Below are positions 20,314-36,909 of a stretch of DNA of 37,360 bases, piece by piece. The stretch comes from Deltaproteobacteria bacterium. GTDB taxonomy: Bacteria; Desulfobacterota; Desulfobulbia; Desulfobulbales; Desulfurivibrionaceae. The notes beneath the pieces were generated by a model that was given only the letters and a program-made list of their open reading frames with translations, was not told the origin of the DNA and ran no database searches. The stretch is from assembly GCA_021847425.1 (NCBI GenBank), contig JAJZRF010000032.1, positions 1 to 37,360 of the forward strand. The letters are read 5' to 3'. Position numbers and translations under genes: made by a program. Position 1 is the first letter of the stretch, and the number at the start of each line of letters is the position of its first letter.

Positions 20314-22308
20314 ATGGCGATCAAACGAAATGGATGTGAGGGATGCGCGGATATTACCTGCGTTTCCACGCAACAGATTCTCTCCCAGGATGTGGCCAAG
20401 AACGTCAAGACCGGCTATGACCGCGTCAAAGCGCGGGGCATGTCGGCCTGCCTTTTCGGCTCCGGCGGAACCTGTTGCCGCAACTGCAATATGGGCCCCT
20501 GCCAGATCATCGACGGCGTGGACGACATGCTCGGCATCTGCGGCGCCACCGCCGACACCGTGGCGGCCAGGAATTTCGCCCGGGTTGTCGCCGGTGGTTC
20601 CGCCGCGCATACCGATCATGCCCGGGAGATGGTCAAAGGCTTCATCGAGGCAGCCAAAGGGGAAGGCCCGCACCAGATTCAGGATGTGGCCAAGCTGAAA
20701 AATCTGGCCGAGGTATTCGGCATCGTCACCGAAGACCGTGAGGTAAAGGATATCGCCCTGGAGCTCGGCGAAAAGGCCCTGGCCGAATTCGGCAAGCAGG
20801 ACGATGCGCCGCTTTCCATGCTGAAACGGGCCACGCCGAAACGGCAGGCTCTCTGGAAAAAGCTCGGCATCGCGCCCCGCGGCATCGACCGCGAGGTGGT
20901 GGAGATGATGCACCGCACCCACATGGGCGTTGATCAGGAATACCACAACATCATGCTCCAGGCCTCCCGCACCGCCTTGTCCGACGGCTGGGGCGCCTCG
21001 ATGCTTTCCACCGAGCTGACCGACATCATGTTCGGCACCCCGGTGCCCCGGCGCGCCATCGTTGATTTGGGCGTGTTGAAGGCCGATCAGGTCAATGTCA
21101 CCGTGCACGGGCATGAGCCTTTGCTGGCCGAGGCGTTGTGCATCGCGGCCCAGGATCCGGAAATGTTGGAACTGGCCAAGAAGCAGGGCGCCAAGGGGAT
21201 CAACCTGGCAGGCGTCTGCTGCACCGGCAACGAGATCCTCATGCGCCGCGGGATTCCGGTGGCCGGAGGTTTTGTTCAGCAGGAGATGGTCATCGCCACC
21301 GGCGCCGTGGAGGCGATGGTGGTTGATGTCCAGTGTGTCATGCAGTCCGTGGCCGAGGTGGCCAAGAGTTTTCACACCGACATCATCACTACCAACTACC
21401 GGGCCAAGATGCCCGGCGGGATTCATATCCAGTTCGAGGAGCACGAGGCCCTCGATTCCGCCAAGAAGATCCTGACCCACGCCATCAAGAATTTCAAGAA
21501 GCGCGGCAAGTGCTTCATCCCCCAGGAAACCAAGATGGACGTGGTGGTGGGTTTCAGCCATGAAACCATCAATACCATGCTGGGCGGCCGTTTCCGCGCC
21601 AGCTACCGGCCATTGAACGACAACATCATCAATGGCCGGATTCGCGGGGTGGGTGCCATCGTCGGCTGCGACAACTTCAAGCTGGCGGACGACACCCATG
21701 AGACCATCGTCAGGGAATTGCTGAAAAACAATATCCTGGTTCTGGCCACGGGCTGTGCCGCCACCTCTCTCGGCAAGGCCGGGTTGCTCAATCCCGAGGC
21801 GGCCCGTTTCTGCGGCGAGAGCCTGCGGGAAGTCTGCGAAACCGTGGGTATGCCGCCGGTTTTGCATATGGGTTCCTGTGTCGACAACTCCCGGATTCTC
21901 ATCGCCGCCACCGAAATGGTGCGGCAAGGCGGCTTGGGCGACGACATCTCCGACCTGCCCGCCATCGGCACCGCCCCCCTGTGGATGAGTGAAAAGGCCG
22001 TGGCCATCGGCCAGTACTTCGTGGCCAGCGGTGCCCAGGTTGTCTTCCAGAATCTGCCCGTGACCGGGTCCAAGAATTTCCACAAGTATCTCACCGAAGG
22101 GCTGATGGGGCAGGTGGGCGCTCACTGGAATATCGCCTCGGAGCCCTTGGAGATCGCCAGGATCATGATCGAGAAGATCGAGGAAAAGCGTGACGTCCTT
22201 GGCATCAACAAGAAGAAAGAGCGCGTCCTCTTCGACATGGATATGCGTCGTGACCTTGGCGGCGGCCCCCTGAAGGACGTTGGCTGCCATGGCCCGAGCG
22301 CTTCTTGA
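20314..22308 (+). CDS. cooS: Ni-dependent carbon monoxide dehydrogenase catalytic subunit (CooS/AcsA)
   Basis: Reduces CO2 to CO at a Ni-Fe-S C-cluster and passes CO to acetyl-CoA synthase; the reverse reaction oxidises CO. The 664-residue protein is full length. N-terminal Cys fit the known clusters: C46 and C54 for the D-cluster, and C55, C58, C63 and C76 for the B-cluster, spaced almost as in Moorella AcsA. Later Cys motifs such as GVCCTGNE, VGCDNF, ATGCAATSLGK and MGSCVDNSR match C-cluster and channel regions. GAGGA lies before ATG 20314. The neighbouring acs genes point to the acetyl-CoA pathway rather than a stand-alone CO oxidation system. The nickel-insertion gene cooC is not in the window. 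Confidence 0.96.
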   Translation: MAIKRNGCEGCADITCVSTQQILSQDVAKNVKTGYDRVKARGMSACLFGSGGTCCRNCNMGPCQIIDGVDDMLGICGATADTVAARNFARVVAGGSAAHTDHAREMVKGFIEAAKGEGPHQIQDVAKLKNLAEVFGIVTEDREVKDIALELGEKALAEFGKQDDAPLSMLKRATPKRQALWKKLGIAPRGIDREVVEMMHRTHMGVDQEYHNIMLQASRTALSDGWGASMLSTELTDIMFGTPVPRRAIVDLGVLKADQVNVTVHGHEPLLAEALCIAAQDPEMLELAKKQGAKGINLAGVCCTGNEILMRRGIPVAGGFVQQEMVIATGAVEAMVVDVQCVMQSVAEVAKSFHTDIITTNYRAKMPGGIHIQFEEHEALDSAKKILTHAIKNFKKRGKCFIPQETKMDVVVGFSHETINTMLGGRFRASYRPLNDNIINGRIRGVGAIVGCDNFKLADDTHETIVRELLKNNILVLATGCAATSLGKAGLLNPEAARFCGESLREVCETVGMPPVLHMGSCVDNSRILIAATEMVRQGGLGDDISDLPAIGTAPLWMSEKAVAIGQYFVASGAQVVFQNLPVTGSKNFHKYLTEGLMGQVGAHWNIASEPLEIARIMIEKIEEKRDVLGINKKKERVLFDMDMRRDLGGGPLKDVGCHGPSAS

Positions 22309-22369: not shown

Positions 22370-25015
22370 ATGAAATCGGGAAGCCGTTTAGAACGGATTT
22401 TAACATCAGGAGAGTTCGCAGTCACCGGCGAGCTGGGGCCACCAAAGAACGGCAATGCCGACCAGGTGCGGGAAAAGGCGCGCCTGCTCAAAGGGCATGT
22501 TGACGCGGTCAATATCACCGACTGCCAGACCGCCATTGTCCGCATGTCCAGCATCAGCGCCGGGCTCTTGACCCTTTCCGAGGGCGTGGAGCCGGTCATT
22601 CAGATGACCTGCCGCGACCGGAACCGGATCGGAATGCAGAGCGATATCCTGGGCGCTGCCGCCCTGGGCCTCAAGAACCTGCTCTGCCTCACCGGTGACC
22701 ATCAGAAGTTCGGCAACCATCCCGGCTCCAAGGGGGTCTTTGACATGGACTCCATCCAGCTGCTCGGCATGGTCAAGACCATGCGGGATGAGAAGAAATT
22801 CCAGTGCGGCGAGGTGATCAAGTCCCATGAGCCCAGACTTTTTCTCGGCGCGGCGGCAAACCCGTTTGCCGGTCCGTCCGAGCAGTTCCGGGCCGCCCGG
22901 CTGGCGAAAAAGGTTGCCAACGGCGCTGATTTCATCCAAACCCAGATCATCTACAATGTTGAGCGTTTTGCCAAATTCATGGAGGCGGTCCGGGATCTCG
23001 GCTTGCATGAAAAGGTCCACATCCTGGCCGGGGTTACCCCGCCGAAATCCGTGGGCATGGCCCGGTACATGAAGAGCTCCGTGCCCGGCATGGATGTCAC
23101 CGATGAGGTGATCAAGCGGATGCAGGGGGCCAAGGACAAGGAAGACGAGGGGATCAACATCTGCGTTGATATCATCCGGCAGGTCCGGGAGATTGAAGGG
23201 GTGGCCGGGGTGCATATCATGGCCATTGAATGGGAGAGCGCCGTGCCGGAGATCGTCAGCCGGGCAGGGCTCGCCACCCGTCCGGTCTTTGTTGATGAGC
23301 CTTTTGCCTTGGCGGCGGCAGCGCCAGAGGCACCAATCGAGGTTCGGTCCACGGTGGCCGAGGACAAGGAAAGTGATGCTGTCCTGGCGGCAGCCAAGGC
23401 GGAGGCGGAACAGATTATCGCCGCAGCCAGGGCGGAAGCCGCTCAGTTCCGTGCTTCTGCCGCCGGTGGTGGCAGCGGTGCCGGGGCGGTTGATCAGGCA
23501 AGGATTGAAATAGAAGAAGCAGGAGAGGATGCGATGAACGAGAAAGAACGTCAAATGGCGCTTGAGTCGGTACGCCTTGGTCTTGATGCGCTCAAAAAGG
23601 CCTATGGCTTGTCGGACGATCAATTTGATGCGCTGGCGAAATTTGCCGGGGCAGAGGCGATTCTCAAGCGCGAGCCGGTGCTCGCTGCTCCTGCTTCCGC
23701 GGGGAGCCCTGCGGCAAGGCCCGCGGCTCCTGTGATAAGCCCGGATGTCGAGGCTGCCAAAAAGGCGGCAGAGGCCAAGGCTGTCGAAGAAGCAAGGCAG
23801 GCCGAGGCTGCCAAGAAAGCAACGGAGGCCAAGGCTGCGGAAGAGGCCAAGAAGGCCGAGGCCGCTAAAAAAGCGGTGGAAGCCAAGGCTGTGGCAGAAG
23901 CAAAGCAGGCCGAGGCGGCCAAGAAAGCAACGGAGGCCAAGGCTGCGGCAGAGGCCAAGAAGCCCGCGGTCCCGGAAGAAAAGAAAGCCCCGGCAGTTTC
24001 CGCCCCGGCAGCCGGTGCGGTTGGGGCGACTGATCTCGCCCTTGAGAAAACCCCCTTGGCCGAGCGTGCTGCCAAGGTTCCTGCGGCTTCCTACAAACAG
24101 GCATACACCGGGGCCATCCGCCAGACAGTTCTGGGCACCGAGCCCAGCACCATCAAGGTGGGCGGGGAAAGCACCCTGCCGTTCCATCTGTTTGAGGGCG
24201 GTATGCCCAACAAGCCCATGGTTGCCTTTGACGTGCTTGATGTCAAGCCCGATGAATGGCCCGATTCCCTGGCCCGTCATTATCAGGACGTTATGGACAA
24301 TCCCGTGGCCTGGGCTCAGAAATGCGTCAAGGAATACGGCGCCGACGCCATCTGTCTCTCCATGGTCAGCACCGACCCCAACGGCCTGAACCGGCCTGCG
24401 GGCGAGGCGGCAAAGGCTGCGGCCGAGGTGGTGAAAAACATCGAGGTGCCGGTTATTGTCTGGGGCTGCGGCAACGGCGAAAAGGATACGGAAACCCTGC
24501 GGGAGATCACCTCGCTCATCGGCGACAAGAAGGTATGTCTGGCCCCGCTTTCCGACAGCAACTACCGGGCCGTCGGCGCCACGGCCATGGCCTTCCAGTA
24601 CCCCATGGTCGCTGCCTCGCCCATCGACGTGAATCTGGCCAAGCAGCTCAACATTCTTCTTGAGAATCTCGGGGTCTCCCTGGACTCGGTGTTGATCGAC
24701 CCTTCCATCGGCGCGCTGGGTTACGGGATCGAATATTCCTACTCCGTCATGGAGCGGATCCGTTTGGCCGCCCTGACCCAGAAGGACGAGAAGCTCCAGG
24801 TGCCCTTTATCTGCAACCTGGGCCGCGAGGTCTGGAAGGCCAAGGAATGCCGGTTGCCCACCGACGGGATGATCGGCGATCAGGAAACCCGGGGCATTCT
24901 CATGGAGGCCATTACGGCTTCCTGTATGCTGATGGCGGGCGGTGAGCTGATGATCATGCGGCATCCGAAAGCGGTTTCTCTGACCAAGTCGCTGATTGCA
25001 GGGCTTATGGGTTAA
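22370..25015 (+). CDS. Fusion: methylene-THF reductase (MetF) - helical linker - corrinoid Fe-S protein small subunit (AcsD/CdhD)
   Basis: One 881-residue ORF covers two pathway steps. Residues 1 to about 300 are a MetF-type TIM barrel (FAVTGELGPPKNGNADQVRE, NITDCQTA, LLCLTGDHQKFG, GVTPPKS), which reduces methylene-THF to methyl-THF. Residues about 305-385 are Ala-rich. Residues 389-432 look like a small helical segment beginning MNEKERQMALES. Residues 462-533 are four 18-residue K/A/E repeats. Residues about 560-881 match AcsD (STLPFHLFEGGMPNKP, DAICLSMVSTDPNG, LIDPSIGALGYGIEYSYS), the partner of AcsC in carrying the methyl group on cobalamin. The frame is open throughout, with no sign of a sequencing slip. 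A ribosome-site-like AGGAG before the internal ATG 23534 suggests either an old gene boundary or internal initiation. MetV and AcsE are not encoded nearby. Confidence 0.9.
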   Translation: MKSGSRLERILTSGEFAVTGELGPPKNGNADQVREKARLLKGHVDAVNITDCQTAIVRMSSISAGLLTLSEGVEPVIQMTCRDRNRIGMQSDILGAAALGLKNLLCLTGDHQKFGNHPGSKGVFDMDSIQLLGMVKTMRDEKKFQCGEVIKSHEPRLFLGAAANPFAGPSEQFRAARLAKKVANGADFIQTQIIYNVERFAKFMEAVRDLGLHEKVHILAGVTPPKSVGMARYMKSSVPGMDVTDEVIKRMQGAKDKEDEGINICVDIIRQVREIEGVAGVHIMAIEWESAVPEIVSRAGLATRPVFVDEPFALAAAAPEAPIEVRSTVAEDKESDAVLAAAKAEAEQIIAAARAEAAQFRASAAGGGSGAGAVDQARIEIEEAGEDAMNEKERQMALESVRLGLDALKKAYGLSDDQFDALAKFAGAEAILKREPVLAAPASAGSPAARPAAPVISPDVEAAKKAAEAKAVEEARQAEAAKKATEAKAAEEAKKAEAAKKAVEAKAVAEAKQAEAAKKATEAKAAAEAKKPAVPEEKKAPAVSAPAAGAVGATDLALEKTPLAERAAKVPAASYKQAYTGAIRQTVLGTEPSTIKVGGESTLPFHLFEGGMPNKPMVAFDVLDVKPDEWPDSLARHYQDVMDNPVAWAQKCVKEYGADAICLSMVSTDPNGLNRPAGEAAKAAAEVVKNIEVPVIVWGCGNGEKDTETLREITSLIGDKKVCLAPLSDSNYRAVGATAMAFQYPMVAASPIDVNLAKQLNILLENLGVSLDSVLIDPSIGALGYGIEYSYSVMERIRLAALTQKDEKLQVPFICNLGREVWKAKECRLPTDGMIGDQETRGILMEAITASCMLMAGGELMIMRHPKAVSLTKSLIAGLMG
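23519..23536 (+). promoter_or_regulatory. Possible internal ribosome site and start within metF-acsD
   Basis: AGGAG around 23521-23525 is followed about eight bases later by in-frame ATG 23534 (residue 389). Initiation here would give a 493-residue linker-AcsD protein without MetF. It could be the fossil start of a formerly separate acsD. The purine-rich Glu/Gly codons make a chance match quite possible. Confidence 0.3.
23753..23968 (+). repeat. Four 54-bp tandem repeats encoding an 18-residue K/A/E helix repeat
   Basis: Units start at 23753, 23807, 23861 and 23915. Each encodes AAKKA-x-EAKA-x-x-EA-x-x followed by AE or, in the last, PA. Units 1 and 3 resemble each other (VEEARQ, VAEAKQ), as do 2 and 4 (TEAKAA), implying duplication of a 108-bp pair. 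Eighteen residues equal five turns of alpha-helix, so the repeats should form one long charged helix joining MetF to AcsD. Confidence 0.9.
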
Positions 25016-25130: not shown

Positions 25131-27335
25131 ATGTCTAAGATCATCTGTTCAGCCGCCATTCGTGGGGCTCACAAGATAGTTGATATGGCGGAGGCGAAGT
25201 TCGAGGAGGCCCTCAAGAAATTCGGCCCTGAGCAGGAGGTGCATTTTCCGAACACCGCCTACTTCTTGCCGATTATTTACAGTATGCTGGGCGCCAAGGT
25301 GAAGAACCTGGGCGACATGAAGGATATCTTCAAGGAATGCCGCACCCTTCTCCCGGAACAGGTGAGCGCCAATATCTGGCTGCCGTACCTCGCCCCGGCC
25401 CTTGATGCGGGCATGGCCACCTTTTTTGCCGAGGAGATGTTCGAGGCCATCCGGTATCTGGAGACCCCTGATTTTTATACGAAGACCGAGGATCCGCTGG
25501 AGAAGAATATCTGGCTGGGCGCAGCCGATGACGTTATCTTCCGTAAGCGCGGCGTTGAGTTCGTTGACGGCACCGCCCCCGGTTTTGCCGCCATCATGGG
25601 CACCCCGGACGACAATGAGGTTGCCTCAAGGATCGCCCTGGAGCTTCAGGAAAAAAATCTCTACATCTTCATGCACGACCAGACCAACGGCAAGAACATG
25701 GCCGAGCGTCTGGTGGAAAACAAGGTGCAGGTCGGATGGAACACCCGGTTGGTGCCCTTTGGCAAGAGCTATACCTCCGCGGTCTTCGCCATCGGCTTTG
25801 CCTGCCGGGTGGCCATGGCCTTCGGCGGCATCAAGCCCGGCGACTACAAGGGCAATCTGATCTACAATAAAGACCGGACCTTTGCCTTTGTCATGGCCTT
25901 TGGTCCGGTTTCCGACGAGTGGTACGCCAACGCGGCCGGCGCCATCAACTGGGGTTTCCCCACCATTTCCGACTACGATATCCCCGAGATATTGCCCACC
26001 GGGATCTGCACCTACGAACACGTGGTCAGCCGCGTGCCCCACAACGAGATCGTCCAGAAGGCCATCGAGGTGCGCGGCCTTAAGGTCAACGTTACCAAGA
26101 TCGACATCCCCATGTCCTTTGGCCCGGCCTTTGAAGGCGAGCGCATCCGCAAGGACGATCTCTTCATGGAATGCGGCGGCGGCCGGACCTCCGCAGTGGA
26201 GGTTCTGGTTTCCAAGGATATGTCCGAGGTGGAGGACGGCAAGGTCACCATCCAAGGCCCGGACATCAAGGACATCGAACAGGGCAAAAACCTGCCCATT
26301 GCTATCCTGGTCGAGGTTGCCGGCCGGGGGATGCAGTCGGACTTCGAGCCCATCCTCGAGCGCCAGTTCCATCACCTGATCAACTACATCCAGGGCATCA
26401 TGCACATGGGCCAGCGGAACATCATGTGGGTCCGTATCGGCAAGGCGGCCGTGGAAAAGGGCTTTTCCCTCACCCATATCGGCAAGGTGCTGCACGGCAA
26501 ACTGCATCAGGAGTTCGGCGCCATTGTCGACAAGATCCAGGTCAAGATCTACACCGAGCTGAACAAGGTGGAAGAGGTGCAGGAGCTTGCCCGCAAGGTG
26601 TACGCGGAGCGCGATGAGCGTCTGGGCTCCATGACCGACGAGACCGAGGAGATTTTTTACTCCTGCACCCTGTGCCAGTCCTTTGCCCCGAGCCATGTCT
26701 GCGTCATCACCCCGGAGCGGATCGGCATGTGCGGCGCCTATAACTGGCTGGACGGCAAGGCCTCCTACCAGATCAACCCCACCGGCCCCAACCAGCCCAT
26801 CCAGAAGGGCGAGTGCGTGGATGAAAAACTCGGGATCTTCAAGGGGATCAACGATTTTGTCGAACAGACTTCACGCGGGGCCGTGCCCGAGCTTGCCTTG
26901 TATTCCTTGATGAACAGCCCGATGACCGCCTGCGGCTGTTTCGAGGCCATTGCCGCCATGTTGCCCCAGTGCAACGGAATCATGGTGGTCAACCGCGATT
27001 TCAGCGGCATGACCCCTTCCGGGATGAAGTTTACTACCCTGGCCGGCATGGCTGGTGGTGGCGCGCAGACCCCAGGTTTCATGGGCGTTTCCAAGCACTT
27101 CATGACCAGCCCCAAGCTGTTTGTCGCCGAGGGCGGTCTCAAGCGGATGGTCTGGCTGCCCAAGATGATGAAGGAAGAGATCAAGGACAAGCTCATGCAG
27201 CGCTGCAAGGAAATCGGCATGCCCGAGTTCTACGATATGATCGCCACCGAGGAGAACGGCACCACGGAAGAGGAAATCCTCGCCTTCATGAAAAAGGTCG
27301 GTCATCCGGCCCTTGAGATGGAATCCGTTGTTTAA
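25131..27335 (+). CDS. acsB: Acetyl-CoA synthase catalytic subunit (AcsB, bacterial full-length form)
   Basis: Joins CO, a methyl group from the corrinoid protein and CoA into acetyl-CoA at the Ni-Ni-[4Fe-4S] A-cluster. The 734-residue protein includes the N-terminal CODH-binding domain absent from archaeal CdhC. A-cluster ligands are C512, C515, C524 and C534 (SCTLCQSFAPSHVC, then IGMCGAYNW). The distal-nickel motif C601-G-C603 is in TACGCFEAI. Spacing matches Moorella AcsB with a shift of six. AGAGGAG lies about ten bases before ATG 25131. The leader contains the 46-bp repeat. A 13-codon ORF starting in that repeat at 25100 overlaps the acsB start in another frame. Confidence 0.97.
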   Translation: MSKIICSAAIRGAHKIVDMAEAKFEEALKKFGPEQEVHFPNTAYFLPIIYSMLGAKVKNLGDMKDIFKECRTLLPEQVSANIWLPYLAPALDAGMATFFAEEMFEAIRYLETPDFYTKTEDPLEKNIWLGAADDVIFRKRGVEFVDGTAPGFAAIMGTPDDNEVASRIALELQEKNLYIFMHDQTNGKNMAERLVENKVQVGWNTRLVPFGKSYTSAVFAIGFACRVAMAFGGIKPGDYKGNLIYNKDRTFAFVMAFGPVSDEWYANAAGAINWGFPTISDYDIPEILPTGICTYEHVVSRVPHNEIVQKAIEVRGLKVNVTKIDIPMSFGPAFEGERIRKDDLFMECGGGRTSAVEVLVSKDMSEVEDGKVTIQGPDIKDIEQGKNLPIAILVEVAGRGMQSDFEPILERQFHHLINYIQGIMHMGQRNIMWVRIGKAAVEKGFSLTHIGKVLHGKLHQEFGAIVDKIQVKIYTELNKVEEVQELARKVYAERDERLGSMTDETEEIFYSCTLCQSFAPSHVCVITPERIGMCGAYNWLDGKASYQINPTGPNQPIQKGECVDEKLGIFKGINDFVEQTSRGAVPELALYSLMNSPMTACGCFEAIAAMLPQCNGIMVVNRDFSGMTPSGMKFTTLAGMAGGGAQTPGFMGVSKHFMTSPKLFVAEGGLKRMVWLPKMMKEEIKDKLMQRCKEIGMPEFYDMIATEENGTTEEEILAFMKKVGHPALEMESVV

Positions 27336-27435: not shown

Positions 27436-28791
27436 ATGGCTTTAACAGGTATTCAAATCCTCAAAATGCTTCCCAAGAAGAACTGCGGGGAGTGCGGCAT
27501 TCCGACCTGTCTTGCCTTTGCCATGAAGGTGGCTGCCGGGCAGACGGAAATCGGCGAATGCCCGTATGTGAGCAATGAGGTCAAGGAGCAGATCGGCGAA
27601 GCATCCGCCCCTCCGATCCGGACTATTAAGATCGGCTCCGGGGACAGCAGTTATACCACCGGCGGCGAGACCTGTCTGTTCCGCCATGAAAAACGTTTTG
27701 AGAACCCCACCGGCATCGCGGTGCTGGTCACCACCGATATGAACGAGGCCGACGTCGATGGCCGGATCAGCCGGTTCAAGAACCTCCGCTACGAGCGGGT
27801 CGGCGTGCTGCTCAAGGCCGACCTCATTGCCATCAAGGACACCTTGGGCGATGGTGCTGCCTTTACCGCCCTGACCAAGAAGGTGCTGGATGGCGCAGCC
27901 GATGCCAGCATCATCCTGATGAGCGACAAACCCGACAATCTCAAGGCAGCCGCGGCCGCCTGCGGGGAGCGCAAGCCCCTGCTGTATGCCGCCACCGCCG
28001 GCAATGCCGAGGCCATGGCCGCAGTGGCCAAGGAGACTCAGTGTTCTCTGGTTGCCAAAGGCACAAACCTCGACGACACCGTGGCTGTTTCCGAAAAACT
28101 TCTTGCCGCCGGGCTCAAGGATCTCATGCTCGACACCGGAGCCCGCACGGTCCGCGCCGCTCTGGAGGACAGCGTGGTGGGCCGGCGTTCCGCCATCCGC
28201 GCCAAATTCAAGCCCCTGGGTTTTCCCACCATCACCTTCCCCTGCGAGATCGCCGCTGATCCGCTGATGGAGGCCATGGTCGCCTCGGTGCTCATCGCCA
28301 AATACGCAGGCGTTGTCGTGCTTTCCGACCTGCAGGGCGATATCCTTTTTCCGCTGCTTCTGGAACGGCTGAACATCTTCACCGATCCGCAGCGGCCCAT
28401 GGTGGTGCAGGAAGATGTGTACAACATCAACGGCCCAACCGAGGATTCCCCGGTTCTCATCACCTGCAACTTCTCCCTCACCTACTTCATTGTTTCCGGC
28501 GAGATCGAGGGGAGCAAGGTGCCTTCTTGGCTGCTGATCAAGGACACGGAAGGGCTTTCGGTCCTCACCGCCTGGGCGGCCGGCAAGTTCGGCGCGGACA
28601 TGATCGCGGCGTTCATGAAAAAATCCGGGATCGAGTCCAAGGTCAAGCATCGGGAGCTTATTATCCCCGGCTATCTTGCCTCCATGAAGGGCGAGCTTGA
28701 AGAGGAACTGGCCGGCTGGACCATTACCATCGGCCCCCGTGAAGCCGGGCATCTGCCCGCCTTCCTCAAGGAATGGAAACCCGCGGCGTAA
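27436..28791 (+). CDS. acsC: Corrinoid iron-sulfur protein large subunit (AcsC/CdhE)
   Basis: Binds cobalamin and a low-potential [4Fe-4S] cluster and, with AcsD, ferries the methyl group from methyl-THF to acetyl-CoA synthase. The 451-residue protein starts with the cluster domain: C17, C20, C25 and C42 (KKNCGECGIPTC, GECPY). A TIM barrel follows, then a C-terminal cobalamin-binding domain (PVLITCNFSLTYFIVSGEIE, WLLIKDTEGLSVLTAWAAGK). GGGAGGA stands just before ATG 27436. It is flanked on both sides by heptanucleotide arrays. The methyltransferase AcsE that loads it is not in the window. Confidence 0.96.
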   Translation: MALTGIQILKMLPKKNCGECGIPTCLAFAMKVAAGQTEIGECPYVSNEVKEQIGEASAPPIRTIKIGSGDSSYTTGGETCLFRHEKRFENPTGIAVLVTTDMNEADVDGRISRFKNLRYERVGVLLKADLIAIKDTLGDGAAFTALTKKVLDGAADASIILMSDKPDNLKAAAAACGERKPLLYAATAGNAEAMAAVAKETQCSLVAKGTNLDDTVAVSEKLLAAGLKDLMLDTGARTVRAALEDSVVGRRSAIRAKFKPLGFPTITFPCEIAADPLMEAMVASVLIAKYAGVVVLSDLQGDILFPLLLERLNIFTDPQRPMVVQEDVYNINGPTEDSPVLITCNFSLTYFIVSGEIEGSKVPSWLLIKDTEGLSVLTAWAAGKFGADMIAAFMKKSGIESKVKHRELIIPGYLASMKGELEEELAGWTITIGPREAGHLPAFLKEWKPAA

Positions 28792-28794
28792 AAA

Positions 28795-28881
28795 AAGGTT
28801 AAAGGTGAAAGGCTAAAGGCTAAAGGTTTCCGCCTTGCACCTTTGACCTTGTACCTTTAACCTTTAACCTTTTACCTTTTT
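28795..28881. repeat. Inverted heptanucleotide array between acsC and fdhA
   Basis: The left arm (28795-28829) has five 7-mers of AAGGTTA/AAGGCTA type. The right arm (28833-28881) has about six of CCTTGCA/CCTTTAA type. The arms are near reverse complements and can form a long imperfect hairpin around TTTCCG. The spacer is almost entirely repeat. It may terminate or attenuate transcription or stabilise mRNA between acsC and fdhA. Confidence 0.85.
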
Positions 28882-28889
28882 AACCGGCT

Positions 28890-31800
28890 ATGAATATCAC
28901 AATCAACGGTTATGAAATTGTTGCCGAACAAGGGATCACCATCCTGGAGGCGGCAAAACGGGCGGATATTCATATCCCAACCCTGTGCTACGTGAACAAG
29001 GGGACCTCGGACATCCCCTGCGAGATCTGCGTGGTCAGCGTGGAAGGGGTGGAGGCGCCGGTGCGGTCCTGTGTAACCCAGGTGTGCGAAGGGATGCGGA
29101 TCATCACCGAGTCCAAGGAGCTGCAGGCCAAACGGGCGGAGCGCATGACTCTCCTGATGGAAACCCATTTCGGCGACTGCAAGGCTCCCTGCAATCTTAC
29201 CTGTCCCGGGCAGATCAATGTACAGGGCTACATCGCCCATGTGGCCAAGGGCCAGTACGAAGAGGCTCTGCGTCTGGTCATGGAGCGCAACCCCTTTCCC
29301 TTTTCCGTGGGCAGGGTGTGCCCCCGGTTCTGCGAGACCCGTTGCCGCCGGATTCTCGTGGATGAGCCGGTGTCCATCAACCATCTGAAGCGCTTTGTCG
29401 CCGACTGGTGCATGGCCCACAAGATCGACCTGCGTATTCCCCGCGATCCCTCCACCGGCAAAAAGATCGCGGTTATCGGCGGCGGTCCCTCCGGCCTGAG
29501 CGGCGCCTACTATCTGGCGCGCAAAGGCCACGATGTCACGGTCTTTGAGTCCGCCGCCAAACTTGGCGGCATGCTGCGTTACGGCATCCCCGACTACAAG
29601 ATCCCCCAGGATGTGCTTGACTACGAGATCAGCACCATCCTGCGCATGGGGATCAATGTCCGCCTGAACCAGAAATGGGGCGAGGATTTCACCCTGCAAT
29701 CCCTTAAGGATCAGGGCTACGAGGCTATTCTCATCGCCACCGGCACCCCGGTGGATGAGAGCCTGGATATCCCGGGCTGTGCTCTGCCCAAGGTGATCCC
29801 GGCCACGAAATTTCTGCGGGACATGTCCGAGGGCAAGGGTGGCAACTACGGCAGTTCCGCCGTGGTCTTCGGCGGCAACAATGTGGCCATGGAGGTTGCC
29901 CGTTCCCTGTTGCGCAAGGAAGTCGGCCAGGTCACCATTATTTATTCCCGGGCTCAGACCGAGATGTCGGCCAATCAGCGCAATATCCGGGTGGCCGAGA
30001 AAGAGGGCGTTCAGTTTCTGCTCATGGCCGCGCCGGTGAATTTCAGCGATACCAACAACGGCATCAGCGTGCAGTTGATCCGGACCAAGCTCGGAGAGCC
30101 GGACGAGAAAGGAATCCGCTACCCCGAGGCGATCCCCGGTTCCACGGTGAACATCAAGGCCGACACCGTCATTGTTGCCCAGGGATTGAGCGCCTGCCGC
30201 GAGAAATTCGACGGCGGCGAGCTGGAGGCGACCCTGGAGCTGACTCCGAAATGCAACATCAAGGCCAATCCCAGAACCTCGCTGACCAATCATCCGGGCA
30301 TCTATGCGGCCGGTGATGTGACCAGCGGTCCCCGCTCGGTGATCCAGGCCGTGGTCGCGGCCCGGCGCGCGGCGGAAAATATCCATGCCCAGGTCATGGG
30401 CATCACCAAGACCGTGGCCGAGAGCCGGTTCAACTTTACCCGGGGCAAGGGGTTCGATGATGTGGATCTCCGCAACTTCGAGGGGATCAACATCAAGCTG
30501 CGCGAGAAGATGCCCACCCGGCCGCCCCAGATCGCGACCCAGGACTTCAGCGAGATCAAGCTCGGCTTTTCCGAGCAGATGGCCATCACCGAGGCAAAGC
30601 GCTGCCTTTCCTGCGGCTGCCGGGCCTATGACCGTTGCGACCTGAAGAAGCTGGCCACGGATTTCGGCCTCGATCCGACCCGGACCGGGATGGCGGCAAA
30701 GCCGGTCTACACGGAAAAGATCGCCCATCCCATGATTCAGGTGGACCTGAACAAGTGCATCTACTGCAAGCGCTGCCAGAACAGCTGCGAATACGATGCC
30801 CTGGAAATCAGCGCCGAGGATGTCGATGACAAGGGACGTCCTGTCGGCTTGCGTTTCAGGTTCAAGGAGAACTGCGTCAACTGCGGCAGCTGCGTGGACA
30901 ACTGCTCCACCGGCGCCCTGAACAAGAAAGACGTATTGGTGCCGGTGGTGAACGAACCCATCCGCGAGGTGCGCTCCACCTGCCCATACTGCGGGGCCGG
31001 TTGCCAGATCATCCTCAAGGTGAAGGGCAATACCCTGATGGAGGTCACCGCGGATCCCGACCTGGCGCCCAATTACGGGGCGCTCTGCGTCAAGGGGCGG
31101 TTCGGGCATAATTTTGTCCAGCACAAGGACCGTCTGACCAAACCTCTGGTGCGCCGCGGCTCACAGCTGGTGGAGACAAGCTGGGAAGATGCCCTGAATA
31201 TGGTGGCCAAGCGTTTCTTCGACATCAAGGCCATGTACGGCCCGGATTCCATCTCCGGTTTCAGCTGTGCCCGGGCCAGCAACGAAGAAAATTATCTGAT
31301 GCAAAAATTCATGCGGACAGCGATCGGAACGAATAATATCGATCACTGCGCCCGACTCTGACACGCTCCCACGGTGGCCAGTTTGGCCCTCACCTTCGGC
31401 AGCGGCGCAATGACCAACTCCATTGCGGATACATTGAAAACCGATCTCTTCTTCATGGTCGGCAGCAACCCGGACACCAGCCATCCCACCATCGGGTTGC
31501 GCATTCACCAGGCCGTGACCCGGGGAGCAAAACTGGTGGTGGTGGACCCTCGCCGGACCAAGCTGGCCGAGCGGGCCGATCTCTGGCTGCGCATCGTGCC
31601 CGGCACCGATGTCGCTTTTTTAAACGGCATGATGCAGGTCATTATCGAGGAGGAGCTCTGGGATAAGAAGTTTGTCGAGGAGCGGACCGAGGATTTTGAC
31701 GAACTTGCCCGGCTGGTCAAGAAATACACCCCGGAGATGGTGGAAAAGATCACCGGCATCAAGGAGGATCAGTTGCGCCAGGCCGCCCGGATGTATGCGG

Positions 31801-33005
31801 CGGAAGGGCGGCACGCCACCTTCTGGGGCATGGGCATCACCCACTATGTCACCGGCACGGACCGGGTCAAGTCCATCGCCAACCTGACCATGCTCTGCGG
31901 CAAGATCGGGAAGGAAGGCACCGGCTGCAATCCCCTCCGGGGCCAGAACAATGTGCAGGGCGCCTGCGACGTGGGGGCGCTTTTCAATACCCTGCCGGGG
32001 TATGGCGGCCTGGAAAACGACAATCTCTTTGATAAGTATGAAAAGCTCTGGGGCATCAAGCTGCCCAGGCGGCCGGGCAAACCCGCCACCGAGGTTTGGG
32101 AAAATGTTTTCAAGGGCAATATTCGCAGCCTCTATATCTTCGGCGAGGATCCGGCCGTGGCCGACGCCAATATCGCCCATGTTCAGGCGGCCCTGGAAAA
32201 GGTCGATTTTCTGGTGGTTCAGGACATCTTCCTGACCGATACCGCGAAGATGGCGGATGTGGTTCTGCCTGCTGCCTGTTTTGCGGAAAAAGACGGCACT
32301 TTTACCTGCACGGAACGAAGGGTACAGAGGATTCGCAAGGCGGTTGAGCCGCCGGGCGAGGCCAAGCCGGACTGGCAGATCATCTCCCTGCTTTCCCAGC
32401 GGATGGGCTATCCCATGCATTATAATTCCGCTTCGGAGATCTTTGACGAGATCTGCCAGCTCTTGCCGCAGTACAAGGGGCTGTCCTACGAACGGCTGGA
32501 AAAGGTCGGCTTGCAGTGGCCGGTGCCGGACCCGCACCATCCCGGCACCCCGGTGCTCCATACGGAGAAGTTCACCCGCGGCAAGGGGCTGTTCATTGCC
32601 GAGGATTACATCCCCCCGGTTGAATTGCCCGATGAGGAATATCCGCTGCTGTTCACCACCGGCCGCGATATTGCCCGGTATAACTTCAGCAGCATGACCG
32701 GCAAAACCACGCAGATCGATGAGATCAGCCCGGAGTGTTTTGCCGAGGTGCACCCTGGGGATGCGGAGCGGTTAGGGCTCAAGGAAAAAAACTGGGTGCG
32801 GCTCACCTCGCGGCGCGGTTCGGTGGAAATGCGGGCAACCATCACCGACCGGACCCAGGAGGGCACCATCTTCAGCACGTATAACCATTTGCAGGCGCTG
32901 GTGAACCTGCTGACTCTGGATGCCCTGGATCGTCTTTCCAGAACTCCGGAGTACAAGCTGTGTGCCATCAAGGTTGAAGTATTGGGCGATGAGTTGCCGG
33001 ATTGA
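28890..33005 (+). CDS. fdhA: Selenocysteine formate dehydrogenase catalytic subunit fused to a GltD-like flavoprotein domain
   Basis: Reversible CO2/formate enzyme providing formate to Fhs. Read through one in-frame TGA (31359-31361) as selenocysteine, it has 1371 residues with Sec at 824 in DHCARL-U-HAPTVASLA, the canonical FdhA site. Domain order: [2Fe-2S] ferredoxin-like residues 1-95 (C33, C44, C47, C61); a GltD-like FAD/NAD(P) module about 95-500 (KIAVIGGGPSGLSGAYYLAR near 191, AAGDVTSGP near 472); two [4Fe-4S] ferredoxin motifs (CIYCKRCQNSC near 622, CVNCGSCVDNC near 661); then the molybdopterin domain from CPYCGAGC near 697. The flavin module suggests NAD(P)H exchange within one polypeptide. 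ATG 28890 has no clear ribosome site and follows the repeat array by eight bases. hdrA and mvhD follow, implying one complex. Confidence 0.93.
31362..31394 (+). promoter_or_regulatory. Predicted bacterial SECIS element of fdhA
   Basis: Directly after the TGA at 31359, GGCC (31376-31379) pairs with GGCC (31385-31388) around AGTTT. Outer GGT (31373-31375) pairs with ACC (31392-31394) across a three-base bulge. The loop starts 18 bases after TGA, a distance suited to SelB-dependent recoding. The first bases after TGA, CACG, are the same as in E. coli fdhF. Confidence 0.7.
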
Positions 33006-33089
33006 TTTTTTTGGAGTGCGGTTTTGGCTCCTGAGCTGTCAGTTAAAAATAATTGTACTAATTGGAAATGCCATAACCGGCATAAGTAT

Positions 33090-33129
33090 CCGTAACGAAA
33101 TGCTCTAGGAGCTAGACATTTCGAAACGG
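33090..33129 (+). promoter_or_regulatory. Extended hairpin in the fdhA-hdrA spacer
   Basis: CCGT (33090-33093) pairs with ACGG (33126-33129), CGAAATG (33096-33102) with CATTTCG (33117-33123), and TCTAG (33104-33108) with CTAGA (33112-33116). This makes 16 pairs with an AA/AA internal loop, one bulged C and a GAG loop. It excludes formation of the terminator-like hairpin at 33106-33143. A smaller hairpin, ATGCC/GGCAT, lies at 33068-33083. The arrangement resembles an attenuator or riboswitch expression platform; no ligand is evident. Confidence 0.55.
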
Positions 33130-33143
33130 CTCCTAAATTTTTT
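33106..33143 (+). terminator. Terminator-like hairpin before hdrA, competing with the upstream hairpin
   Basis: TAGGAGC (33106-33112) pairs perfectly with GCTCCTA (33129-33135), followed by AA and six T (33138-33143), 15 bases before the hdrA ATG. Its left arm is used by the stem at 33090-33129, so the two cannot form together. GCTCCT also occurs at 33027-33032, offering a third partner for AGGAGC. Confidence 0.5.
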
Positions 33144-33158
33144 AAGTGGAGTTACACG

Positions 33159-36100
33159 ATGGGACAAGCAAAAGATAAAGCTGAGTTGAGCAGCTTGTCT
33201 GCTCAAACGAAACTTATGCCCTCCGGGGCTAAAAAATCAGGGACGGTAATGGTCGTCGGCGGCGGTATCGCCGGGGTCCAGGCGGCCCTTGATTTGACCG
33301 AGCTCGGCTACTATGTCTATCTGGTGGAAAAATCCGCAGCCATTGGCGGCGCCATGGCGCAGCTGGATAAAACCTTTCCGACCAACGACTGCTCGCTTTG
33401 AATACTCGCGCCTAAGCTGGTAGAGGCCGGTCGGTCTCCCAATATTGAAATCTTAAGCAACGCCGATTTTCTTTCCCTGGACGGAAAGCCGGGCAGTTTT
33501 ACCGCCAAGCTGCGGATGCGGCCGCGCTATATCGACGCGGACAAATGCACGGCCTGCGGCCTGTGCACCAAGTACTGCCCCAAACATCTGGTGGACCCGT
33601 ACAATGAGGGCTTGGCGGTTACGAGGCCGATCCACATCGACTATGCCCAGGCAGTGCCAGCCACCTATTATATTGATCCGGAGGCGTGCCTGTACCTGAA
33701 GCACGGCACCTGCCAGATCTGCGTCTGCACCTGCCAGAGCAAGGCCATTGATTTCAGCCAGAAACCGGAAGAAAAGGAGATCCAGATCGGGGCGGTGATC
33801 ATGGCCCCGGGCTTTGGCCGCATCCCCGAGGCAACCCTGGCCAAGTACAGCTATGGTTTGCACCCGGACGTCATGACCAGCCTGGAGTTCGAGCGTCTGC
33901 TCTGCGCCTCCGGCCCCTTTCAGGGCGAGGTCAAGTGCCTCTCCGACCACCGGCATCCCAAACGGATCGCCTTTATTCAGTGCGTGGGCTCCCGGGATCT
34001 CGGCTGCAACAACGGCTACTGCTCCTCGGTCTGCTGCATGTATGCCATCAAGGAGGCCATGGTTGCCAAGGAGCATGACCCCGAGGTGGAGATTGCCATC
34101 TACTACATGGACATGCGGACCCAAGGCAAGGGCTTCGATGCCGCCCAGAAGAAGGCCGAGTCCATGGGGATCAGGTTTGTCCGCGCCCGGGTGGCCGATG
34201 TCATGCCGTGGGAAAAGAATCTCAAGCTCACCTACTCCACCCTGGACGGGACGCACAGCTTCGAGCCCTTTGATATCGTGGTGCTCTCCGTGGGCCTCGA
34301 TGCTCCGGCCGACGCCAAGAACCTCGGCGAGGTCGCCGGTTTTGCCCTGAATAATTACGATTTCTGCAAGACCGAGACCTTTGCCCCCTTGCTCACCACC
34401 AGGCCGGGGGTCATGGTGGCCGGCGCCTTCCAGGGTCCCAAGGATATCCCGGAAAGCGTCACCCAGTCCAGCGCGGCCGCAGGCTTGGCAGCCGGGCTTA
34501 TTGCCAAGGATCGCGGCAAGGCCCTGGTGCACAAGACCTATCCCAAGGAACAGAAAACCGGCAAGGACGAAGAGGTCCGCATCGGCGTCTTTGTCTGCCA
34601 TTGCGGGATCAACATCGGCAGCGTCGTCGACGTGCCTGCGGTTGAGCAGTACACCGAAGGGATGGAAGGCGTGGTCTACCATGCCCAGAGCATGTACAGC
34701 TGCTCCCAGGACGCCCAGGAGGTGATCAAGGCCAAGATCAAGGAGCATAACCTGAACCGGGTGGTCATCGCCGCCTGTTCCCCGAGAACCCACGAGCCGC
34801 TCTTCCAGGAAACCCTGAAGGATGCGGGGTTGAACCGCTGTCTCTTCGAGATGGTCAATATCCGTGACCACTGTTCCTGGGTTCATGCCAACGAACCCGC
34901 GGCCGCAACGCAAAAATCCAAGGACCTGGTGCGGATGGGTGTTGCCAAGGCCCGCCACATCCAGCCTCTGCCCGAGCAGACCGTGCCGGTTACTGCCAAG
35001 GCCCTGGTTCTGGGCGGCGGGGTGGCAGGGTTGACCGCGGCCCTCACCCTTGCCGAGCAGGGCTTCCATACCACGGTGGTGGAAAAGGAGGCGACCCTGG
35101 GCGGCCATCTTCAGCATCTCTCCTACACCCTGCAGGGCGACACGGTGTCCACGGTTTTGGGCGAGATCACCGACAAGGTGAAGAAGAACAAAAAGATCGA
35201 GGTGCTGACCAATACCGAACTGACCCAGGTCAACGGCTTTGTCGGCAACTTCAGCTCGGTGCTCACCACCACCAAGGGGAAGAAAGCCACGGAAACCACC
35301 CTTGACCATGGGGTGATCATCATCGCCACCGGCGGCCGCGAGCATCGGCCCGAAGTGGTGCTGGGCAATCCGGTGAAATACTCCGACACCATCGTTACCC
35401 AGCGCGAGCTGGAGCAGCGCTTGTCCGGCAAGGGCAAGAACCTGGCGCCCAAGTCGGTGGTCATGGTGCAGTGCGCCGGTTCCCGGGGGGATGATCTCAA
35501 CTACTGCAGCAAGGTGTGCTGCAACCATGCGGTGAAAAACGCCCTCAAGATCAAGGCGCTTGACCCGGCCTCCCAGGTGGTGGTGCTTTACCGCGACATG
35601 CGCACCTACGGCTTTGCCGAGGACGCTTACCGCGAGGCCAGGGAAAAAGGGGTGGTCTTCATCCCCTACACCATGGACAACAAGCCGAAATTCAAGAGCA
35701 GCGGCAAGAAGACCAGCGTTACTTTCTACGATCCGATCCTCCGCGACGAGGTCACCATGGCCCCGGAGATGCTGGCTCTCAGTGTCGGCATCGTGGCCGA
35801 CGGGACCGAAGACTTGAGCAAGCTCTTGAAGATTCCGGTCAACGAAGACAAGTTCTTCCTCGAGGCCCATGTCAAGCTGCGACCGGTGGAATTGCCGGTG
35901 AGCGGGGTCTATGTCTGCGGCCTGGCTCATTCGCCCAAACCGGTGGAGGAGATCATCGTCCAGGCGCAGGCAGCGGCGGCCAAGGCATCCATCCCGCTCT
36001 GCAAGGGCTTTGTTTCGGTGGAGCCCACCATTTCCTGCGTGGACAAGGAAGCGTGCATCGGCTGCGGCCTGTGCGAATCGCTCTGCCCGTACCAGTCCAT

Positions 36101-36266
36101 CCGGATCATCAAGGACGAAAACGGCAAGCGCAAGGCCGAGACCATCACCGCCTCCTGCAAGGGCTGCGGCATCTGCGCCTCGCATTGCCCGGTATTCGCC
36201 ATCTCCATGGGCGGCTTCACCGACGAACAGATCAACGCGCAAATCACCGCCTTTGGTGCACAATAG
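33159..36266 (+). CDS. hdrA: Selenocysteine-containing HdrA-like electron-bifurcating flavoprotein, double-module form
   Basis: HdrA-type FAD/Fe-S protein that can split or merge electron pairs between ferredoxin and other carriers. Read through TGA 33399-33401 it has 1035 residues with Sec at 81 in TNDCSL-U-ILAPKL, where HdrA normally has a cluster-binding Cys. Module one: FAD motif [13 protein letters not shown] near 34, ferredoxin motif [13 protein letters not shown] near 130, CQICVCTC near 185, then [11 protein letters not shown]. Module two repeats the fold with [18 protein letters not shown] near 616 and ends in ferredoxin motifs [12 protein letters not shown] near 967 and [12 protein letters not shown] near 1000. 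GGAG lies seven bases before ATG 33159; a start at ATG 33216 would remove the repeated peptide. HdrB and HdrC are absent, so with FdhA and MvhD it may form a formate-linked bifurcating complex. Confidence 0.92.
33177..33222 (+). repeat. 46-bp duplicated hairpin element, copy B (hdrA 5' end)
   Basis: It matches 25061-25106 at 44 of 46 bases; both differences fall in or beside the hairpin loop. TTGAGCAG (33186-33193) and CTGCTCAA (33199-33206) keep an eight-pair stem. Here it encodes residues 7-21 of Hdr[16 protein letters not shown], a segment ahead of the FAD domain. Confidence 0.85.
33402..33427 (+). promoter_or_regulatory. Predicted SECIS element of hdrA
   Basis: After TGA 33399, GCC-TA (33410-33414) can pair with TA...GGC (33421-33427) around an AGCTGG loop with a two-base bulge. 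The loop begins about 13 bases after TGA. This is the weakest of the three SECIS candidates; the Sec call rests mainly on protein conservation. Confidence 0.45.
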
Positions 36267-36276
36267 AGGAGCAGTT

Positions 36277-36909
36277 ATGAGTCAGAACGATTTCAACCCG
36301 AAGATCCTGGGTTTTCTCTGCAACTGGTGCTGCTATGCCGCAGCGGACAGTGCCGGGGTTTCCCGTTACCAGTATCCGCCGAATCTGCGGACCATCCGGG
36401 TGATGTGCACCGGACGTCTCGATCCGGCCTTTGTCCTGCGCGGGTTTGCCGAAGGCGCCGACGCCATCTTCTCCGGTGGCTGACAACTCGGTGAATGCCA
36501 TTACCAGGTTGGTAATTACGACGCGATGGGTGTGAGTGCATTGGTGAAGAAGGTTCTGGCCGAGGTCGGGATCAATCCGGATAGGTTTGGTCTGCAGTGG
36601 GCCTCGGCGGCGGAGGCGCCGCGCTTTGTCAAACTGATCACCGATTTTACCATGAAGACCAAGGAGCTCGGCCCCATAGGCCAGGCCGAAGGCTTGAGCC
36701 CCGAGGAGTTGAAGGTCCGGATCGGCAAGGCCCTTGCCCTGGTGAGCGACCGCAAGCTGCGGATCGCCCTGGGCAACGCCACCAAGACTATTCGGAAAGA
36801 GGCGATCTTTACCCAGGACTCCATAACCGCCGTGATCGAGGAGAAGCTGGGCAAGACCATCACCGCCGGGCTGGAAGGCGGCGGGGCGGAGGTTGCTGCC
36901 AAGAAGTAA
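36277..36909 (+). CDS. mvhD: Selenocysteine-containing MvhD/FlpD-type electron-transfer subunit
   Basis: Small [2Fe-2S] protein that links a hydrogenase or formate dehydrogenase to HdrA. Read through TGA 36481-36483 it has 210 residues with Sec at 69. The N-terminal half carries FLCNWCCYAAADSAGVSRYQ (C15, C18, C19), VMCTGRLDP, and GG-U-QLGECHY, where homologues have Cys (or Sec in methanococcal VhuD) in C-x-x-G-x-C-H. About 80 residues beyond the usual end (after TKELGP) form an extra helical C-terminus not typical of 140-residue MvhD. GAGGAG lies five bases before ATG 36277, which is ten bases after the hdrA stop. A terminator follows at 36943-36983. Confidence 0.93.
36484..36516 (+). promoter_or_regulatory. 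Predicted SECIS element of mvhD
   Basis: ATTACC (36500-36505) pairs perfectly with GGTAAT (36511-36516) around AGGTT. The loop begins 22 bases after the TGA and contains the GGU-type sequence common in bacterial SECIS loops. It is the clearest of the three candidates. Confidence 0.75.

Follow-up and report, generated by a model that had tools for sequence, protein, structure and literature searches.

In a 37,360-nucleotide (nt) contig of a Deltaproteobacteria bacterium of the Desulfurivibrionaceae (JAJZRF010000032.1, assembly GCA_021847425.1), hereafter the window, three adjacent genes, fdhA, hdrA and mvhD, each carry one in-frame TGA at a position where selenocysteine (Sec) or cysteine (Cys) is expected. 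The window is the entire contig C30 of an assembly of 2.70 Mb in 121 contigs, which is 81% complete. We found a complete twin of this trio elsewhere in the genome, on contig C98, in the order hdrA-mvhD-fdhA and with Cys at every Sec site; this Cys twin is preceded by a short open reading frame (ORF) with its own UGA and a hairpin resembling a Sec insertion sequence (SECIS). Comparisons with related genomes suggest a Sec leader-peptide switch that would control the Cys set as a selenium-free backup operon, a reading to which we give a probability of about two in three. To our knowledge, little is understood of the way in which bacteria gauge selenium and choose between Sec and Cys enzymes. If the proposed reading is true, the sensor would be built from the very reaction that it measures and would be readable from sequence, and the coexistence of full Sec and Cys three-gene sets in these anaerobes would be explained. 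The trio itself belongs to a known kind of selenoproteins; what stands out is the Cys twin with its UGA leader.

A UGA-containing leader in front of the Cys operon

The proteins of the C98 twin are 57% (HdrA), 55% (MvhD) and 46% (FdhA fusion) identical to the Sec forms. In an HdrA tree, built by a quick method from 52 rows sampled from larger sets, the Sec orthologues and the leader-bearing Cys forms fall into two groups with one change each, and the support of 100 for both indicates old paralogues rather than a recent mutation. The C98 leader (locus L026) possesses a Shine-Dalgarno (SD) sequence, AAGGAG, and a TTG start at 430, which is followed by seven more codons and a TGA at 454-456. Past this TGA come a hairpin with the apex CCCGGUUCGGG, 31 codons and a TAG stop at 550-552; a predicted helix that engages the ribosome site of hdrA comes next, and hdrA begins at 648. 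The same layout recurs in Cys-hdrA leaders of differing sequence: the start precedes the UGA by 8 or 9 codons (10, 7 or 6 in a few), the apex is centred 25-32 nt past the UGA where the first pattern matched, and a second stop lies 48-114 nt past the UGA, after 15-37 codons. Thus, as in an attenuator, a short ORF that contains the codon to be sensed has its start at a fixed place before the operon.

A strict scan demanded three things: a start codon 8 or 9 codons ahead of the UGA, the apex motif, and a frame that stays open for 20 codons or more past the UGA. Upstream regions were excluded if the hit had less than 68% identity or began beyond query residue 60, the 79 rows gave 51 distinct regions, and L180, which has no upstream DNA, was left out. 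The strict pattern was found in 39 of the 50 Cys-hdrA leaders. Dinucleotide shuffles gave it in 11 of 2000 cases, and random windows drawn from the collected loci in 40 of 3929. In the orthologue comparison, which used only rows with more than 300 upstream bases and retained 49 near Cys forms, it was absent from the Sec-hdrA orthologues (0/56), the more distant Cys hdrA (0/24) and the more distant Sec hdrA (0/22). An extension of the leader to the more distant Cys hdrA was rejected on the second of these counts.

A leader model built from one group of sequences (group A) produced 12 matches in 11 of 58 genomes, ten of them fronting a Cys hdrA and two being relics. No further regulon member was found with this model in the 58 genomes beyond Cys-hdrA leaders and relics; because it was built from one group, the model could miss divergent leaders. 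In one relic (L276, ~1298-1600, genome G021) the Cys hdrA is gone, and in the other (L275, ~1395-2030, G014) hdrA is cut after ~130 residues.

Loss of the leader in a genus without selA

Four Cys-hdrA loci without a UGA and hairpin leader (L218, L220, L250 and L252) belong to four genomes of a single genus, g41 (G116-G119). We found selA in none of these four, two of which are 92% and 95% complete, and in all six leader-bearing genomes tested alongside them, as well as in the window genome. Sec HdrA was likewise not found in G116-G119, each of which gave one match at 1e-280, in the Cys form. L218, the one member of the genus placed in the HdrA tree, nests within the leader-bearing clade, which indicates that the leader was lost in that genus together with Sec synthesis. 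For a reading of the leader UGA as Sec, the joint absence of leader and selA is our strongest argument; it represents a single evolutionary event.

A UCA tRNA with U73 and the genes around the Cys operon

Between the Cys hdrA and mvhD, at C98:3723-3822, lies a tRNA gene with a UCA anticodon, a long variable arm and the discriminator U73. Its 12-base-pair branch folds 7/5 with G1:C72 and without a bulge, and the z-score of the cloverleaf is -4.42. The first-pass annotation of the window had named a tRNA-Sec among the things to look for. The C98 tRNA exceeds the Rfam tRNA-Sec threshold (60.7 versus 47 bits) and is the sole one to do so, but it is of the Cys type, and the canonical G73 type was not found in the 81%-complete assembly. 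Canonical tRNA-Sec, with at least 68 bits, was found in 51 of the 58 genomes. U73 is present in all 14 distinct UCA tRNAs of Cys clusters (13 from Cys-hdrA stretches and one from L204), and G73 in all 17 others caught by the same pattern; an ordinary tRNA-Sec is therefore excluded for C98. An above-threshold Rfam match to tRNA-Sec can thus be a Cys-type tRNA.

Divergent tRNA copies stand directly after the Cys hdrA at eight places in six of the 58 genomes, the window's own included. Among 49 distinct Cys-hdrA loci, the form seen on C98 (type A) starts within ~200 nt after hdrA in 11, and a second form (type B) lies 1.2-7.4 kb after hdrA in three, in all of which it is followed by a second selB. 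By eye, the type-B copies (L086, L089, L204 and L251) show A1:U72, U73 and an 8/4 branch with a bulged T stem. The tRNA in L233 and L239 looks degenerate.

According to the available text of two reviews, selC* tRNA-Cys of Deltaproteobacteria has U73, a UCA or GCA anticodon and an accompanying second selB (PMC7609411, PMC11415595). A tRNA-Sec-like body, U73 and UCA are common to selC* and the tRNAs described here. Type B matches the selC* of Desulfobacterales and Syntrophobacterales, as far as these are set out there, in A1:U72, the bulged T stem and the second selB. Type A, which includes the tRNA of the window genome, differs in its 7/5 fold, G1:C72, lack of a bulge and location between the Cys hdrA and mvhD. 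The C98 tRNA thus carries U73 on a tRNA-Sec-like body and lacks the 8/4 acceptor/T branch with a bulged A51a; we call it selC*-like and do not file it as a selC* member, because of its 7/5 fold without a bulge. If our reading of the operon is true, tRNAs of the selC* type would gain a physiological setting.

Two further tRNA loci were observed. L204 (745-870, G029) has its type-B U73 UCA tRNA between a HesB-like gene and selD on a small contig. L205 (G055) contains at ~7746-7840 a second canonical tRNA-Sec copy, whose 5' acceptor strand differs; it lies ~8 kb away from the intact copy and is probably a broken duplicate.

The neighbours of the Cys operon, in one or several genomes, include genes for a HesB-like protein, selD, yedF, a double-cubane protein with its activase, a channel of the MIP (aquaporin) family, and a second selB. 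We checked 46 Cys stretches, with 43 distinct leaders among them, for four Wood-Ljungdahl genes and found none of these. The HesB-like gene is located at 8700-9047 in L026 and is also found in L086, L089, L191 and L251. As HesB-like proteins are a known selenoprotein family in the available part of PMC1794560, the backup provided by the cluster may extend beyond the trio to further selenoproteins. selD occurs in L089 (13659-14702), L084 (15241-16281), L191 (13588-14628) and L251 (8182-9222); the L089 copy has no UGA, in contrast to the selD of the window genome. The MIP channel gene (L026, 9132-9956) recurs in the Cys clusters of several genomes, and a selenite uptake route is one possibility for it.

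Leader fold and the proposed switch

Consensus folding was restricted to the leader groups A, C, D and E. In group A, for which the alignment A3 holds 16 of the 17 leaders, the consensus contains a helix pairing CUCC..GCUGACGUU with AACGUACAGC..GGAG, the ribosome site of hdrA, and in group C (10 leaders) the ribosome site of hdrA is paired with a pyrimidine stretch. Two leader groups thus have a conserved helix in which the ribosome site downstream is hidden, as expected of an attenuator, and the consensus fold of group D (8 leaders) shows no SD-hiding helix. In the consensus folds of the two groups with an anti-SD:SD helix, some sequence shows changes on both sides of a pair for 6 of the 50 and 4 of the 28 pairs predicted. 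In addition, the leader's own SD in group A can pair with the strand just 3' of the hairpin, and by eye this middle strand could alternatively pair inside the sequestering helix.

We propose that the trio of the window would be a selenium-dependent FdhA-fusion/HdrA/MvhD electron-transfer set serving the Wood-Ljungdahl pathway, and that the Cys set of C98 would replace it when Sec is scarce. A ribosome would start the leader ORF and, after 8-9 codons, reach the UGA and its SECIS-like hairpin. It would then either decode the UGA as Sec and continue for 15-37 codons to the second stop, or terminate at the UGA, and this outcome would decide whether the helix-paired ribosome-binding site of hdrA is freed. 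Termination at the UGA would leave the middle strand free and open the helix, and the Cys operon would be switched on at low selenium. In some genomes, the window's included, the Cys-like UCA tRNA made from the operon, presumably charged with cysteine, could insert Cys at the UGAs of the Sec genes through SelB. The decoding of the leader UGA and the regulation are inferred, and we favour the low-selenium-on polarity because making Cys forms while Sec is available seems pointless and because a genus keeps the Cys hdrA without Sec synthesis. Whether bacteria of this order, with record titles such as Desulfobulbaceae and Desulfocapsa, sense selenium through a dedicated Sec leader ORF setting a selenium-free backup operon for a three-subunit selenoenzyme, with a UGA-reading Cys tRNA preventing stops in selenoprotein genes in some of its species, is in our estimation an evenly balanced question.

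Evidence against the switch and alternative explanations

Several observations weigh against the proposed switch. The strict pattern fails in 11 of the 50 leaders: six are variants (L256, L240, L262, L083, L248 and L191), L190 runs into the end of its contig, and the other four are those of genus g41. At least 22 open codons follow the UGA in the frame of the leader ORF in 44 of 46 leaders and in the other two frames in 29 and 28 of 46, and the open frame is weak evidence of coding because the other frames are often open too. The C98 stretch of UGA and hairpin folds better than shuffles by no more than a moderate margin (z = -2.13), and 4 of 200 shuffles fold as well. In a consensus scan, the C98 leader showed no sigma-70 promoter and no intrinsic terminator, so transcription attenuation through such a terminator was dropped. 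The selA census covers 11 genomes. Some relatives keep the leader with a degenerate tRNA (L233, L239) or with none, so the leader does not need the tRNA, and cysS* was absent among the neighbours scanned, no genome-wide search for it having been made. In calculations with a static ribosome, the mean unpaired probability of the hdrA SD is 0.17 for the whole leader, 0.16 with the ribosome at the UGA and 0.25 with the ribosome at the second stop; from the first to the second of these ribosome positions, the accessibility rises by more than 0.1 in 19 of 46 leaders, falls in 6 and is unchanged in 21.

These calculations do not support the low-selenium-on polarity, and the rise in accessibility speaks for the opposite one, in which decoding of the leader UGA would turn the Cys operon on, with the ribosome at the second stop covering the anti-SD strand. 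The second stop does lie near the anti-SD strand in the aligned groups. Moreover, the selD, yedF, HesB-like, double-cubane and second selB genes clustered there in several genomes suggest that the Cys cluster is possibly a selenium-handling operon, which would be expressed in the presence of selenium, rather than a backup. However, Cys FdhA, HdrA and MvhD would then be produced while the Sec forms are possible, and the genus without selA keeps the Cys hdrA and loses the leader, which fits a set needed without selenium. We regard the opposite polarity as unlikely, although it is the strongest of the alternatives.

Somewhat less probable still is that the leader hairpin merely binds SelB with Sec-tRNA, the UGA remaining undecoded and the short ORF incidental. 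A SECIS-like element in the 5' leader of E. coli selAB is reported to bind SelB, and the leader apex GGU(U/C) resembles the apex past the UGA of the window hdrA (CCGGUCGG). The fixed distance from start to UGA, which the strict scan found rarely in shuffles, speaks against such an explanation. We consider it improbable, too, by a wide margin, that the leader ORF, instead of regulating, makes a tiny selenoprotein that has a function of its own. It does encode peptides of 24-47 residues with one U each, but these vary between clades save for a PVR- or PGxG-like stretch dictated by the hairpin, and the matches of the group-A model are confined to Cys-hdrA fronts and operon relics. The ordinary explanation, of known selenoproteins and unrelated Cys paralogues with a coincidental leader UGA and hairpin, can draw on families known in Sec and Cys forms and on the Cys replacement under selenium limitation proposed for Desulfobacterium autotrophicum in the available text of PMC1794560 and PMC2702500, but it is strongly disfavoured by the shuffle, random-window and orthologue controls and by the selA test, and we hold it to be the least credible of all. 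We retain the leader-peptide switch with low-selenium-on polarity as the preferred reading.

The Sec trio of the window

The three genes had been annotated in the first pass as selenoproteins, and this interpretation is supported. All three frames are open except for the one TGA in each (Table 1), and Pfam domains span or flank each TGA. Alignment to the Cys paralogues of the same genome places a Cys codon at exactly these columns. As a correction to the label FdhA, the gene is not a plain fdhA but a multi-domain fusion, in which a Pfam scan found 2Fe-2S, Fer4_20, FAD/pyridine-nucleotide (NAD(P)), 4Fe-4S and molybdopterin formate dehydrogenase domains.

The TGAs are conserved. We checked the clade in 30 of 80 collected named loci, with titles such as Desulfobulbaceae, Desulfocapsa and Deltaproteobacteria, and TGA stands at the key position in all 29 readable hdrA, all 28 readable mvhD and 20 of 21 readable fdhA. 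All three TGAs are present in 19 of the 20 loci readable throughout; in the remaining one, L049, fdhA has a Cys codon. Among HdrA rows from the 58 genomes, own included, with at least 68% identity and spanning nearly the whole protein, 49 of 49 have an in-frame TGA, and a few of them carry an additional TGA or TAA. Sequencing errors and pseudogenes are excluded as the cause, as identical TGAs occur throughout the clade. Judged from sequence, fdhA, hdrA and mvhD would be genuine selenoproteins of a kind already known from Deltaproteobacteria.

A bacterial SECIS is a hairpin with a G/U-containing apex ~16-37 nt past the UGA. Hairpins with such apexes at the expected distance follow the three TGAs, as the first-pass annotation had said, and the apexes are conserved in relatives; their folding energies do not exceed those of shuffles (z-scores in Table 1), so the presence of the hairpins is weak evidence by itself. 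The use of SECIS folding energy as proof of Sec was dropped for the same reason. For the window mvhD stretch alone, the lowest-energy fold is a different hairpin from the conserved one.

Of the machinery that was to be sought in the genome, selA, selB and selD are there. In profile searches, selB was found on C49 with 363 bits against a cut-off of 242, and no other selB exceeds this cut-off; selA is on C60 (611 bits) and selD on C81, with its own UGA. In addition, a second FdhA (C71) and a second MvhD (C119), with one TGA each, are further candidate selenoproteins.

Comparison with known systems

Leader-peptide attenuators, such as those of trp, his and ermC, and regulation through a SECIS-like 5' leader, as in E. 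coli selAB, are known kinds. Like the former, the leader described here would set, through the translation of a short ORF, an RNA fold that leaves a downstream site either accessible or buried, and, like the latter, it would have the selenium machinery act on a 5' leader. It differs in that the leader ORF would be governed by a Sec UGA as the decisive codon and would itself contain the SECIS-like hairpin belonging to that UGA. By title and the start of the abstract among the literature matches listed, the original selC* papers being outside the text available, we found no Sec leader peptide controlling a Cys operon.

A Sec/Cys pair of formate dehydrogenases is known from Treponema primitia. 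Vhu and Vhc of Methanococcus voltae form another such isozyme pair (PMC2702500, available text). The genomes studied here resemble both in having parallel Sec and Cys enzyme versions in one genome; the differences are that the whole three-gene set is doubled and that the sensor is proposed to be a UGA/SECIS-like leader acting in cis.

The literature on Sec HdrA, FrhD and FdhA of Deltaproteobacteria goes back to 2006 (PMC1794560, available text), and selenoprotein operons are reviewed in PMC13188914, as far as its text was available. For D. autotrophicum, the accessible part of PMC2702500 gives Sec HdrA, MvhD and FdhA with clustered hdr-mvhD-fdh loci, and proposes the non-Sec paralogues as replacements under selenium limitation. 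The window agrees with Syntrophobacter fumaroxidans and D. autotrophicum, as described in the available parts of PMC1794560 and PMC2702500, in the Sec families and in hdrA adjoining mvhD, and formate dehydrogenase genes are nearby in loci V and VI of D. autotrophicum (PMC2702500), as here. In contrast to both organisms as portrayed in these parts, the window fdhA is a fusion located before hdrA, and the trio closes a CO dehydrogenase/acetyl-CoA synthase cluster. No counterpart of the complete Cys twin operon and its UGA leader is described for either organism in the available text of these two papers. An HdrA with FAD and Fe-S domains adjoins MvhD and a formate dehydrogenase here, as an HdrA-based flavin bifurcating complex requires; from these domains and the D. 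autotrophicum hdr-mvhD-fdh loci, as given in the accessible text of PMC2702500, it is plausible that the trio would act as one formate-linked bifurcating complex.

Wood-Ljungdahl neighbourhood of the trio

The trio forms the end of a Wood-Ljungdahl cluster (Table 1), in agreement with the setting proposed for it in the first pass. The gene upstream of acsC, which we take to be acsB-like from its context, is also found upstream of the trio in relatives: acsB/acsC precede the trio in 21 of the 30 named loci, and in the other 9 the contig ends within or just before fdhA or hdrA.

Table 1. Positions in the window of the Sec trio, its TGAs and hairpins, and the neighbouring Wood-Ljungdahl genes
Feature	Position	Strand	Remark
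Formate-tetrahydrofolate ligase	14819..16582	+	Wood-Ljungdahl cluster
CO dehydrogenase catalytic subunit	20314..22308	+	Wood-Ljungdahl cluster
Methylenetetrahydrofolate-reductase-like half fused to acetyl-CoA decarbonylase/synthase delta subunit (AcsD)	22370..25015	+	
Presumably acsB-like	25131..27335	+	
Acetyl-CoA decarbonylase/synthase gamma subunit (acsC)	27436..28791	+	Directly upstream of the trio
fdhA fusion, Sec form	28890..33005	+	1371 aa; Pfam domains; Cys paralogue on C98 46% identical
fdhA in-frame TGA, CARL-U-HAP	31359..31361	+	TGT in C98 twin
fdhA SECIS-like hairpin apex, GGCC-AGUUU-GGCC	31376..31388	+	z = -0.38 (60 nt from TGA)
hdrA, Sec form	33159..36266	+	1035 aa; two FAD/NAD(P)-binding parts plus Fe-S domains
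hdrA in-frame TGA, DCSL-U-IL	33399..33401	+	TGC in C98 twin
hdrA SECIS-like hairpin, GAGGCC-GGUC-GGUCUC	33423..33438	+	z = -0.39
mvhD (FlpD/FrhD family), Sec form	36277..36909	+	210 aa
mvhD in-frame TGA, GG-U-QLGEC	36481..36483	+	TGC in C98 twin
mvhD SECIS-like hairpin, AUUACCA-GGU-UGGUAAU by consensus folding	36500..36516	+	z = -0.29

Three further features of this region were observed. The gap between acsC and fdhA (28792-28889) is, by eye, filled with the inverted repeats AAGGTTAAAGG and CCTTTAACCTT. The two halves of the AcsD fusion ORF are joined via a long Ala/Lys-rich repetitive linker. Amid the Wood-Ljungdahl genes, a pilB gene at 16840-19050 has a C-terminal part matching cyclic-nucleotide-binding proteins of the CRP kind.

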